NCBI RefSeq assembly: GCF_006402735.1
Contig: NZ_CP017174.1
Span: 5,149,001-5,213,000 of the forward strand
DNA from: Myxococcus xanthus
Lineage (GTDB): Bacteria; Myxococcota; Myxococcia; Myxococcales; Myxococcaceae
Length of the DNA: 64,000 bases
Direction: 5' to 3'
Below are positions 22,720 through 31,541 of the stretch, one piece after another. A program made the position numbers and the translations under genes. Position 1 is the stretch's first letter; each line of letters starts with the position of its first letter. The notes beneath the pieces are model-generated. The model was not told where the DNA came from, searched no databases, and worked only from the letters and a program-made list of their open reading frames with translations.

Positions 22720-24029
22720 GGCCGCCCCCAGGCGCGCGCGGCGTCCGCGTGCGCGAAGAGACCTTCACTGTCGGCCAGCCGCCCCACGTCCTCCGCCAGA
22801 GACGCCGCGGCTGTGGGCGCGACGCGCTGGTAGGTGGTCCACCGGTAGAAGTCGAGCAGGTTGAGTCCCGAGTACGCCCGCGCCAGCCCCGCCGTGGGCA
22901 GCACGTGGTTGGAGCCGGTCATGTAATCGCCGTAGGCCACCGACGAGCGCTCACCCAGGAAGACGGTGCCCGCGTTGCGCACCCGTCCCAGGTCCTCCCG
23001 CGCCGACGCGGTGGCGATGAGCAGATGCTCCGGCGCGAAGTCCGCCACGAAGGGCCAGGCTTCCTCCAGGGACGCCACCGTCAGCACCGCGCCGCGAGAG
23101 CCCAGGGCCGACGTGACGATTTCCCACCGCTTCGCGCGCTCGGCCTGCCGCTCCACCTCCGCGGCGATGGCGTCCGCCAGCGCGTCGCCCAGCGCCAGCG
23201 TGACACAAGCCGCCTCCGGATCATGCTCCGCCTGAGCCAGCATCTCCCGCGCCACCGCGGCAGGGTTCGCCGTGTCGTCGGCCACGACCAGGATTTCACT
23301 GGGACCCGCGGGTGCTTCAATCGCCACCGCGCCCACCACCTGCAGCTTGGCCTCGGCCACATAGGCATTGCCCGGCCCCACGATGCGGTCCACGCGCGGC
23401 ACGCTCTCCGTGCCATAGGCCATGGCCGCCACCGCGCCAGCGCCGCCCAGCGAGAAGACGCGGTCCGCGCCCGCCAGGGATGCCGCCGCCAGCACGCTGG
23501 GGTGTGGCAATCCATCGGGCCCCGGCGGCGAGCACACGATGACCTCGCCCACGCCCGCCACCTTCGCGGGCACCACGCCCATCAGCACGCTGCTGGGGTA
23601 CACCGCGCGGCCTCCCGGTGCATACACCCCCACGCGGCCCAGCGGATCCGGCCGCCGGCCCACGAGGACACCGGGCTCGGTTTCGACCTCCACGCATTGC
23701 GGCTTCTGCGGCGCATGCGCCAGGGCGATGTTGCGGGCCGCTCGGGCCAGCGCGTCCCTGACCGATGGCTCCAATCCGGCGAGCGCCGCGGCACACACCT
23801 CTCGCGGAACCTCCAACGCCGTCAGCTCCACGCGGTCGAACTGCCGCGCGAGTTCGAAGAGCGCCTGGTCTCCTTCCGCTCGCACGCGGGCGATGAGCTC
23901 CCGCACGCGCAGCGCGACGCGGGCATCGGAGCCACTCGCCCGGTCCAGCAGTCGCAGGAGGTCCTCCCGAGCAAGAGCGGACAAAGGACCGCGGTACCTC
24001 AGGGTCGACGAAGCAAGGAAGGCCATCAC
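22716..24029 (-). CDS. hisD: Histidinol dehydrogenase HisD
   Basis: 437 residues. Zinc enzyme oxidising histidinol to histidine in two NAD-dependent steps. Family signatures IVGPGNAYVAEAKLQV, PAGPSEILV and FAPEHLLI are present, as well as TGSNHVLPTAGLARAYSGL near the end. ATG at 24029 overlaps the hisG stop by 4 nt. Confidence 0.96.
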   Translation of the reverse strand: MMAFLASSTLRYRGPLSALAREDLLRLLDRASGSDARVALRVRELIARVRAEGDQALFELARQFDRVELTALEVPREVCAAALAGLEPSVRDALARAARNIALAHAPQKPQCVEVETEPGVLVGRRPDPLGRVGVYAPGGRAVYPSSVLMGVVPAKVAGVGEVIVCSPPGPDGLPHPSVLAAASLAGADRVFSLGGAGAVAAMAYGTESVPRVDRIVGPGNAYVAEAKLQVVGAVAIEAPAGPSEILVVADDTANPAAVAREMLAQAEHDPEAACVTLALGDALADAIAAEVERQAERAKRWEIVTSALGSRGAVLTVASLEEAWPFVADFAPEHLLIATASAREDLGRVRNAGTVFLGERSSVAYGDYMTGSNHVLPTAGLARAYSGLNLLDFYRWTTYQRVAPTAAASLAEDVGRLADSEGLFAHADAARAWGRP

Positions 24030-24886
24030 GCCATCAACCTTTCAATGCGGGTGACGAGGATGCCCTCACAGCCCAATGACTTCAGCGCGTTGATGGTGCG
24101 GTAGATGGTCTTCGCCGGCACCACCGCGTGCACGGCCACGAAGTCACCGCCGTCCAGCACGTCCACCACGGTGGGACCATTGAGGCCCGGGAGGACTTCG
24201 CGCACCCGGATGAGCGAATCCTTCGGCACGTTGGCCATCAGGTAGCGCTTGTCGCGCGCCGCCAGCACCGAGCCCAGCGCCTGCTTCAGCTCGTCCAGCT
24301 TCCGCTGTGCGTCCACCGGATTGCCCTTGCACGCCACCAGCCGCGCGCTGGACTCCAGCACCGTGGCCACCTCGCGCAGGCCATTCATCTTCAGCGTGGA
24401 GCCGGTGGACGTCAGGTCCACGACGATGTCCGCGATGCCCAGGTGGGGCGCAATCTCCGCCGCGCCCGATACTGGGACCACCGCCACCCGCTGCCCGCGC
24501 CTGGCGAAGAACTCCTGCGTCAGCCGGGGGAAGCAGGACGCGACCCGCATGCCCTCCTTCACGTCCTCCGGCGAGGCGAAGCCGCCCTCCTCCCGCGCCG
24601 CCACCACCAGGCGACACCTGCCGAACTCCAGGTCCATCAGCAGGTCCAGATCACGTCCGGCCTCACACACCAGGTCCCAACCGGTGACACCCGCGTGCGC
24701 GGCGCCGTCCGCCACGAACTCCGGGATGTCCTGGGCGCGGACAAAGATGGCCTCGAACTCTCCTCCCAATGACGCGGTGAGCGCGCGCTCACCGCGGGCC
24801 CGCACCTCCAGGCCCGCGTCATTGAACAACTCCCGTACTTCGTCCGAGAGGCGGCCTTTGTTCGGCAGAGCAATCTTCAGCAGCAT
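24026..24886 (-). CDS. hisG: ATP phosphoribosyltransferase HisG, long form
   Basis: 286 residues, first enzyme and control point of histidine synthesis. It has the type-II periplasmic-binding-like catalytic fold (IALPNKGRLS, GVTGWDLV, VDLTSTGSTLKMNGL). The length and the C-terminal ~80-residue ferredoxin-like domain (VPKDSLIRVREVLPGLNGPT) mark the long, hexameric form, which is feedback-inhibited by histidine and needs no HisZ. The gene is preceded by a terminator and a His-rich leader, so expression is probably also attenuated. Confidence 0.96.
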   Translation of the reverse strand: MLLKIALPNKGRLSDEVRELFNDAGLEVRARGERALTASLGGEFEAIFVRAQDIPEFVADGAAHAGVTGWDLVCEAGRDLDLLMDLEFGRCRLVVAAREEGGFASPEDVKEGMRVASCFPRLTQEFFARRGQRVAVVPVSGAAEIAPHLGIADIVVDLTSTGSTLKMNGLREVATVLESSARLVACKGNPVDAQRKLDELKQALGSVLAARDKRYLMANVPKDSLIRVREVLPGLNGPTVVDVLDGGDFVAVHAVVPAKTIYRTINALKSLGCEGILVTRIERLMA

Positions 24887-24928: not shown

Positions 24929-24959
24929 AAAAAAGGCCCGTCCTGGGAGGACGGGCCTT
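24929..24959 (-). terminator. his operon attenuator (intrinsic terminator in the leader)
   Basis: An 11-bp perfect stem, AAGGCCCGTCC (24933-24943) and GGACGGGCCTT (24949-24959), with a 5-nt loop. Six A's at 24929-24934 on the plus strand give a U-run on the minus strand. It is oriented with the his operon and lies ~43 nt before the hisG ATG and ~34 nt after the leader-peptide stop, as in classical amino-acid attenuators. Confidence 0.9.
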
Positions 24960-24992
24960 CGGTCGCTGCGGCAGGTGCCGAGGTGGGTGCGT

Positions 24993-25085
24993 CTAGCGTC
25001 TCACCCAGGCATGCGCATGGCGAACGGTCCCGTCGGGGCCGAGCCGATGATGCGCATGGTGATGGTGAAGGGACGCGAGGAGCAT
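24993..25085 (-). CDS. hisL: Histidine operon leader peptide (HisL-like)
   Basis: A 30-residue frame, ATG at 25085 to TAG at 24993, starting MLLASLHHHHAHHRLG. Residues 7-13 are four His codons, Ala, then two His codons; two more His follow in RHAHAW, so 8 of 30 residues are His. It lies directly upstream of an intrinsic terminator and hisG. Known his leaders (enterobacteria) have seven consecutive His codons, and ribosome stalling there prevents the terminator from forming. The mRNA GACGGG (25034-25029), just after the His codons, can pair with CCCGUC of the terminator 5' arm and could act as antiterminator. No strong ribosome site is visible; a start close to the promoter or a near-leaderless message is possible. 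Confidence 0.85.
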   Translation of the reverse strand: MLLASLHHHHAHHRLGPDGTVRHAHAWVRR

Positions 25086-25092
25086 CGCAGCA

Positions 25093-25121
25093 TGAGTAAC
25101 GACAAAGCGCCCCGCCGTCAA
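25093..25121 (-). promoter_or_regulatory. Possible his leader promoter
   Basis: Minus-strand TTGACG (25121-25116) is a good -35. The -10 is weak: GTTACT (25100-25095, spacer 15) or TACTCA (25098-25093, spacer 17). A start at about 25086-25090 would leave the leader ATG almost at the 5' end. The region is only 100 nt wide between the leader and the divergent thiO. Confidence 0.35.
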
Positions 25122-25185: not shown

Positions 25186-26304
25186 ATGCAAGTCGCGGAC
25201 GTCATCATCGTGGGTGGGGGCATCATGGGCTGCGGCATCGCGCTGCGGCTGCGGCAGGCCGGAGTGCGCGTCGTCGTGTTGGAGCGCTCCATTCCAGGCG
25301 CGGAGGCCTCCAGCGCGGCGGCGGGAATGCTCGCGCCCCAGATGGAGTCCGACGGTCCGGGCGCCTTCCTGGAATTGTGCCTGCGCAGCCGCGGCCTCTA
25401 TCCCGCCTTCGCCGCCGAGCTGCGCGAGCTGTCCGGAGTGGACGTGGCCTACCGGCCCTGCGGCATCCTCAAGGTCGCCTTCAACGAGGCCAGCCTGCAC
25501 CACCTGGACGCCACGGTGGCGTGGCAGCGTGGCATGGGCCTCCGGGCCGAGTTGCTCGACGGCGCCGCGGCCCGCGCCCTGGAGCCACGCCTGTCCGCGA
25601 AGGCCGTGGGCGCCGCGCACTTCCCGGACGACCATCAGCTGGACAACCGGCTCCTGGTGCGCGCCCTGACAATGGCCGCCGCCCGGGTGGGCGCGGAGTT
25701 CCGCAGCGGCTACGTGCGCGGCGTGGTGCAGGAAGGCGGCCGCGCGGTGGGCGTGGACCTGGACGGCGAGTTGCTGCGCGCCGACGCGGTGGTGCTGGCC
25801 GCGGGCTCCTGGTCCGCCCTGGTCCACGGCGCCGGCGTGGAGGCCCGGGCGGTGCGACCCGCGCGCGGGCAGATGGTCCAATTCCAGACACGCCTGCCCC
25901 TGCTGGACCGCATCGTCACGTCCGAGAAGGGCTACCTGGTGCCGCGCGCGGACGGCCGGGTCATCGCTGGCAGCACCATGGAGCTGGTGGGCTTCGACAA
26001 GCAGGTGACCGCGGCGGGGCTGGCGCGCATCCTCGACATGGCCCTGGAGCTGTGCCCGGAGTTGGGCTCGGCGCCCGTCACGGAGACGTGGGCGGGCTTC
26101 CGGCCGTGGACCGAGGACAAGCGGCCCTACCTGGGTGAAGGCCCCGTTCCCGGGCTCTTCCTGGCCACGGGCCACTTCCGCAACGGCATCCTCCTGGCCC
26201 CCATCACCGCGAAGCTCGTCGCACAGGCCGTGCTGGGTGAGCGGCCCGCCGTGGACCTGGCCCCCTTCCGGTACGACCGCTCGCCCGCCCAACCCCGCAC
26301 CTGA
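25186..26304 (+). CDS. thiO: Glycine oxidase ThiO / DAO-family FAD oxidoreductase
   Basis: 372 residues. FAD-binding IIVGGGIMGCGIALRLRQAG at the N-terminus, SSAAAGMLAPQ, VLAAGSWS, the PARGQMV segment and ETWAGFRPWTEDKRPYLG near the end, all typical of ThiO, which oxidises glycine to the imine used for the thiazole half of thiamine. No thiS, thiG or thiF is next to it, but thiC lies 4 kb downstream. ATG at 25186 follows CAGGAAG. It is divergent from the his leader. A different D-amino-acid oxidase specificity cannot be excluded. Confidence 0.85.
   Translation: MQVADVIIVGGGIMGCGIALRLRQAGVRVVVLERSIPGAEASSAAAGMLAPQMESDGPGAFLELCLRSRGLYPAFAAELRELSGVDVAYRPCGILKVAFNEASLHHLDATVAWQRGMGLRAELLDGAAARALEPRLSAKAVGAAHFPDDHQLDNRLLVRALTMAAARVGAEFRSGYVRGVVQEGGRAVGVDLDGELLRADAVVLAAGSWSALVHGAGVEARAVRPARGQMVQFQTRLPLLDRIVTSEKGYLVPRADGRVIAGSTMELVGFDKQVTAAGLARILDMALELCPELGSAPVTETWAGFRPWTEDKRPYLGEGPVPGLFLATGHFRNGILLAPITAKLVAQAVLGERPAVDLAPFRYDRSPAQPRT

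Positions 26305-29480: not shown

Positions 29481-31541
<2,061 letters not shown>

Follow-up and report, generated by a model that had tools for sequence, protein, structure and literature searches.

A putative ribosome-mediated attenuator of the his operon in Myxococcus and its relatives, with His-rich leaders before hisG in Gemmatimonadota

The enterobacterial his operon is preceded by hisL, a short open reading frame (ORF) with a run of His codons, together with an intrinsic terminator before hisG and a competing antiterminator; the Rfam family RF00514 (His_leader) is the model of this leader. A 2004 survey of attenuators by Vitreschak and colleagues reportedly covers gamma- and alpha-proteobacteria, some low-GC Gram-positives, Thermotogales and Bacteroidetes/Chlorobi. 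The passages on his leader peptides in four open-access papers (PMC2965389, PMC9413887, PMC1262725 and PMC8079986) place them in Proteobacteria and Firmicutes and report none in Actinobacteria; among these, PMC9413887 predicts his leader peptides with a terminator and an antiterminator in the Bacillus cereus group, Peptostreptococcaceae and Erysipelotrichales, PMC2965389 predicts histidine leader peptides of hisS/hisZ in bacilli, and the string 'myxococc' is absent from the text of both. Leaderless leader peptides with a TTGACn and TAnnnT promoter are described for LeuL, TrpL and IlvL of Streptomyces lividans in the relevant part of PMC8079986. No report of his attenuators in Myxococcota or Gemmatimonadota was found among the open-access papers listed by the searches, a scope outside which the 2004 survey falls, and within that scope the earlier note on this DNA, which knew of no described case in the phylum, agrees with the literature.

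The analysed window, a stretch of 64,000 nucleotides from a 9.3 Mb single-contig genome, encodes a HisG with 98% identity to that of a strain labelled Myxococcus xanthus, followed on the same strand by hisD, hisC, hisH, hisF, hisN and hisIE and by ORFs with His_biosynth and IGPD domains. The features upstream of hisG are listed in Table 1. The 30-codon frame with HHHHAHH, two more His codons (within RHAHA) and a stop codon ahead of hisG, which had been noted earlier, were read directly from the DNA; the hairpin with a U-run noted with them is likewise present before hisG, but its stem begins 32 nt after the leader stop codon and not 34. A TPP riboswitch (RF00059, 76.7 bits) was also observed in the window at 31405-31512 on the minus strand, directly upstream of thiC (29481-31406). 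Two further structures were predicted in the leader RNA, namely an antiterminator, in which the leader from GACGGG to the stop codon pairs with the spacer and the terminator 5' arm, and a hairpin called P1, in which the His run pairs with the leader half that the antiterminator also uses. Compared with enterobacterial hisL, the locus is alike in its His run within a short ORF, its terminator before hisG, its competing antiterminator and its presumed logic, whereas it differs in the Ala codon that breaks the run, in the single long antiterminator hairpin whose tip holds the stop codon, and in being probably leaderless. The resemblance to the Firmicutes leaders, by the descriptions in the parts of PMC9413887 and PMC2965389 concerned, lies in the predicted His leader peptide. 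Neither His_leader nor the T-box models of Rfam matched the window at the gathering threshold or the leader at E <= 10. Taken together, the locus is very probably a histidine-responsive, ribosome-mediated transcription attenuator of the his operon, for which we infer the stalling, the read-through, the kinetics and the start site.

Table 1. Coordinates of the his leader features and neighbouring genes in the window
Feature	Position	Strand	Basis or detail
hisG, long form with C-terminal domain, first his operon gene	24026..24886	-	TIGR00070 and TIGR03455
Intrinsic terminator (predicted)	24929..24960	-	stem 24960-24932, T run to 24929
Antiterminator (predicted)	24950..25034	-	GACGGG (25034-25029) via stop codon in tip loop to CCCGTC (24955-24950)
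Leader ORF (hisL-like), MLLASLHHHHAHHRLGPDGTVRHAHAWVRR	24993..25085	-	ATG 25085-25083, 30 codons, TAG 24995-24993
P1 hairpin 3' arm ATGCGCATG, second half of leader	25010..25018	-	folding, cognate-pairing test, alignment
His-codon run HHHHAHH, proposed sensor	25047..25067	-	read from sequence; kept in relatives
P1 hairpin 5' arm CATGCGCAT, inside His run	25050..25058	-	folding, cognate-pairing test, alignment
-10-like element TTACTCAT	25092..25099	-	aligned-promoter column; about 6 nt before start codon
-35-like element TTGACG	25116..25121	-	TTGAC spacing across family upstreams
thiO, divergent neighbour of leader	25186-26304

The distribution of the leader was assessed by searching hisG in 195 genomes of the phylum (72 with matches at E <= 1e-40) and in named genomes (32 loci, the organisms partly overlapping), from which 102 upstream regions were collected, 77 of them distinct over the last 250 nt, with L062 and L104 left out for want of an N-terminus match. 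These 77 comprise 71 sequences from the family of the window, which includes Myxococcus, Pyxidicoccus, Corallococcus, Hyalangium and Archangium, three from Gemmatimonadota (L055, L057 and L058, with L057 cut short) and three from Spirochaetes (L059-L061). All 71 distinct family upstreams carry a leader ORF with at least four His in six codons upstream of a close hisG homologue, so that the arrangement goes beyond chance, and the check on relatives proposed in the earlier note found both the His run and the hairpin conserved. A covariance model (R1) of P1 and the terminator, built from 62 sequences and run on 189 genomes of the phylum, matched 74 of them at E <= 0.01 and 70, all of the window family, at E <= 5.2e-6. 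By coordinates, every one of these 70 strong matches lies directly before hisG. Among the 71 family genomes that have a close HisG, only G141 is without a listed match, and its leader was read in L100. Eight weak matches (E 1e-4 to 0.01) were at no listed hisG location, and the seven inspected by eye, all but the one in G086, resemble coding DNA or ordinary terminators.

Within the window family, two genomes with a distant HisG (G109 and G144) show no such leader upstream, and further family genomes without the close HisG yielded no HisG match of any kind. Where a close HisG is missing, no His leader was observed in 19 of 21 Myxococcota hisG upstreams, a set made up of 19 from other families plus those of G144 and G109, and including one upstream of only 199 nt; by eye, the DNA before hisG in the 19 from other families is often coding-like. 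L151 (genome G163, of another Myxococcota family) holds at about 400-520 a clear His leader unlike that of the window family, MFGTLQHHRHHHP, together with a terminator, and its ATG stands 36 nt after TTGAC, and L104 holds a weak His ORF far upstream of hisG. A sequence titled Comamonas sp. KCTC 72670 (L033) encodes a HisG 93% identical to that of Myxococcus and is probably a mislabelled myxobacterium. Because a terminator at one of the weak matches resembles the his spacer, a repeated element was also considered, with pattern counts against a reversed-pattern control of 35/29, 34/34 and 37/15 in three genomes; the idea was dropped because the counts are near the control in two of the three and the third consists mostly of scattered sites with two mismatches.

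The predicted intrinsic terminator lies between the leader and its cognate operon, as in his-type attenuators, and has a stem of 13 pairs counting G-U, with a folding energy of -26.9 kcal/mol (z -5.8; 0 of 200 shuffles as stable). Scanning 6 kb revealed three terminator-like sites against 1.8 expected, the his site having the longest stem by far, and one terminator pair switches between G-C (38) and A-U (23) among 62 sequences. The whole leader RNA also folds more stably than its shuffles (z -6.45; 0 of 200 reach it), whereas the antiterminator of the window taken alone is unexceptional (z -1.25, with 24 of 200 shuffles equally stable), so that the case for it rests on comparison. When 60 distinct sequences were folded without the terminator 3' arm, most gave one long hairpin based on GACGGG-CCCGTC or its equivalent with the stop codon at the tip, and some gave other minimum folds (for example L004, L012, L015 and L045). 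The GACGGG:CCCGUC pairing proposed in the earlier note is thus complementary and supported by the comparison, but it forms just the base of a much longer hairpin. The eight-pair helix of P1 is paired in 91.8% of cells, with one pair holding in only 31 of 60 sequences.

Cognate pairing was evaluated by a swap test, in which the duplex energies of cognate segments were compared with those of segments swapped among 28 diverse representatives (26 of the family and 2 Gemmatimonadota) chosen from 73 sequences, the segments being the His run (1), the rest of the leader (2), the spacer with the 5' arm (3) and all that follows, including the 3' arm (4). Cognate partners paired better for the antiterminator (2:3, -42.1 versus -37.8), P1 (1:2, -23.1 versus -21.1) and the terminator (3:4, -23.0 versus -20.8), each with 0 of 20,000 permutations; among the same 28 representatives the control 1:3 was null (p 0.37) and the control 2:4 gave a small effect (p 0.03), the sole non-null result of the four controls over both groups studied. 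The signal persisted among the 19 close members taken by themselves (p 0.0025 for 2:3 and 0.04 for 1:2). The permutation does not correct for relatedness, but the 14 most diverse sequences still gave p <= 0.0001 for 2:3, 1:2 and 3:4. Prediction and cognate pairing together therefore describe an antiterminator of the his type, whose 5' side directly follows the codon run and whose formation would exclude the terminator. An earlier pairing search, in which the terminator was defined too widely and p fell below 0.05 in only 40 of 74 sequences, was replaced by the swap test. RNAalifold on a MAFFT alignment (A1) recovered no more than the antiterminator base and some small local hairpins, and 0 of 14 pairs had changed on both sides; the long hairpin was missed, possibly because indels misalign the spacer. 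On a second alignment (A2) of P1 and the terminator, 4 of 20 pairs changed on both sides and four of five pair measures beat 500 shuffles, while further pair types showed no excess in A2 (495 of 500 shuffles as high).

Differential codon conservation was observed along the leader. The first three codons of the His run mix CAC and CAT (31/30 at codon 2 and 32/31 at codon 3), while at codons 4-7, the stretch that takes in the P1 arm, CAT GCG CAT CAT is almost invariant (62, 63, 64 and 65 of 71). The mean share of the major codon is 0.976 in the antiterminator strand (7 codons from GACGGG) versus 0.712 at the start of hisG (17 codons), as computed on 62 of the 71 sequences with nine distant or frame-shifted ones excluded. 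The frozen synonymous sites past the His run, together with the best pairing by cognate arms, indicate that RNA pairing is under selection, and the position of the Ala codon (GCG) at the centre of P1 suggests why the His run is interrupted there. In L102 a CTG stands in place of the GCG codon and, by eye, GCATGCAG stands in the partner region. One-base indels in L052 and L095 shift the leader frame past the His run, and both leaders still stop near the usual place.

TTGAC is present in 68 of the 71 distinct family upstreams, with an in-frame ATG or GTG 36-38 nt past it in 67 of the 68 and 35 nt past it in the remaining one (GTG in 59, ATG in 9); in the three upstreams without it (L097, L100 and L103), a TTGC-like sequence can be seen by eye in roughly that position. 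This spacing, together with a -10-like element that contains TA and lies about 6 nt ahead of the start codon, implies that transcription should begin at or next to that codon; for the window we infer a transcript that begins with the leader ATG or no more than about 2 nt away from it. A Shine-Dalgarno-like motif (AGGA, GGAG or GAGG) precedes the leader in just 2 of 68 sequences, which is a weak argument because hisG itself, even by a looser motif, has one in no more than 22 of 68. With the promoter spacing placing the start site at the start codon and no Shine-Dalgarno sequence ahead of it, the leader is probably translated from a leaderless transcript. The S. lividans leaders, as described in the portion of PMC8079986 devoted to them, are similar in that translation of the leader ORF starts at the very first codon of the mRNA, behind a TTGACn/TAnnnT promoter, and they differ in amino acid, in phylum and in having measured start sites where those here are predicted.

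In the proposed mechanism, transcription would probably begin at the first codon of the leader. With charged tRNA-His in short supply, the ribosome would stall on HHHHAHH and cover the P1 5' arm, and the freed second half of the leader would fold with the spacer and the terminator 5' arm into the antiterminator, letting RNA polymerase enter hisG. With ample histidine, the ribosome would reach the stop codon in the antiterminator tip loop, the antiterminator could not start and the terminator would form; without translation, P1 would compete with the antiterminator. Folding of 67 distinct sequences (65 of the family and 2 Gemmatimonadota) gave capture of the terminator 5' arm (P > 0.5) in all 67 with the His run covered, capture below 0.2 in 54 with the stop codon covered (not below 0.2 in the other 13), and a mixed state with a mean capture of 0.55 in the free RNA; the corresponding values for the window are 0.97, 0.00 and 0.39. 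Synonymous shuffles of six leaders matched the observed capture in 10, 13, 23, 20, 29 and 44 of 200 cases, the window's own leader being matched by 10 of 200 with an unremarkable fold energy (equalled or undercut by 122 of 200); high capture on its own is thus no rarity in GC-rich leaders of this sort. In the entire RNA with the His run covered the terminator persists in the minimum-energy fold, and the switch must therefore be kinetic, the antiterminator forming before the 3' arm exists.

The same persistence, together with the strength of the hairpin, is what would be expected of a constitutive terminator that merely lowers his operon expression with no response to histidine; such a terminator would leave the conserved His run, the cognate arms of the antiterminator and P1 and the frozen codons unexplained, and it appears quite unlikely. 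The conservation of the peptide over many genera could alternatively reflect a functional His-rich micropeptide, for example a metal-binding one, with the hairpin as its ordinary terminator. The selection on RNA pairing seen in the frozen sites past the run and in the preference for cognate arms argues against it, as do the distant members, which alter or shorten the part after the run yet keep the run, the pairing and the terminator, and the restriction of the strong R1 matches to sites before hisG (70 of 70); we regard a micropeptide as very improbable.

Elsewhere, his genes are placed under T-boxes and the HisR repressor in the part of PMC9413887 concerned, which lends some interest to another type of attenuation (T-box, riboswitch or RNA-binding protein) or to translational control of hisG. 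The TPP riboswitch located elsewhere in the window is, however, its only gathering-level match among 4227 Rfam families, neither a T-box nor His_leader comes up in the permissive scan of the leader, and the antiterminator ends in the terminator and not at the hisG start, all of which makes this group of explanations the most improbable that we weighed. Attenuation by a translating ribosome, as the earlier note had read the locus, is supported by the conserved leader and hairpin and by the cognate pairing of the arms; that account had the right kind of mechanism but lacked the opposing hairpin of the His run, the likely leaderless start and the occurrence in Gemmatimonadota.

In Gemmatimonadota, HisG was detected at E <= 1e-60 in 86 of 200 genomes, and all of the best 30 of these 86 exhibit a His-rich leader (at least four His in the densest eight codons, counted without a shuffled control), with TTGAC and an in-frame start at 35-39 nt in 27 of the 30. 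Terminators were identified by script in 28 of 30, and L161 and L165 (the same locus as L055) show hairpins by eye. In swap tests on 28 of these leaders, the antiterminator and the terminator each gave 0 of 20,000 permutations and P1 gave p 0.0001, and both controls were null in the same 28 (p 0.80 and 0.25). Covering the His run led to capture of the arm in all 28, whereas covering the stop codon brought capture below 0.2 in no more than 6 of them, so the release step is not supported in these leaders. R1, which was trained without them, was run on three Gemmatimonadota genomes and placed the hisG leader first in two (E 1.5e-5 and 3.6e-4), a contig end cutting off the leader in the third; on two Spirochaete genomes it gave no match. 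Spirochaete hisG (L059, L060, L061 and L062) is likewise preceded by short ORFs rich in His (such as MTGLHHHHHGL) and by a terminator-like hairpin, with AAGGAG before the ORF at least in L059, and this layout looks unlike the myxobacterial one.

The HisG proteins of the window family share 63-72% identity with 32 Gemmatimonadota HisG and 30-41% with 20 other Myxococcota HisG, the latter including G144 and G109 of the window's own family. In a HisG tree of 60 of 69 rows (nine short forms removed; the deepest family members, L093-L103, not among the rows; midpoint root, long branches), the 13 rows of the family (100/99) cluster with Gemmatimonadota (95/95) and away from other Myxococcota, and G109 groups with Spirochaetes. 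The phylogeny and the shared leader suggest a transfer of hisG with its leader between the phyla, the direction of which is not resolved by this midpoint-rooted tree of 60 rows. We lean slightly towards the view that a leaderless His attenuator, built as one long antiterminator whose tip holds the leader's stop codon, originated in a lineage other than the enterobacterial one and travelled along with long-form hisG between Gemmatimonadota and the Myxococcus family. In that case a translation-coupled RNA switch would still work once passed from one phylum to another.

Within the known ribosome-mediated attenuators, these leaders form a separate RNA family, unusual in its layout and in being spread across phyla. 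If the reading as a histidine-responsive attenuator is true, translation-coupled amino acid attenuation would operate in two phyla for which the open-access searches gave no report of it, through an RNA family absent from Rfam 15, and the locus would be a potential case of an attenuator and its gene common to two phyla. It would also mean that transcription and translation are coupled at the Myxococcus his operon, from a leaderless transcript, and as Myxococcus is a genetically tractable predatory and developmental bacterium, this coupling would be directly testable there.
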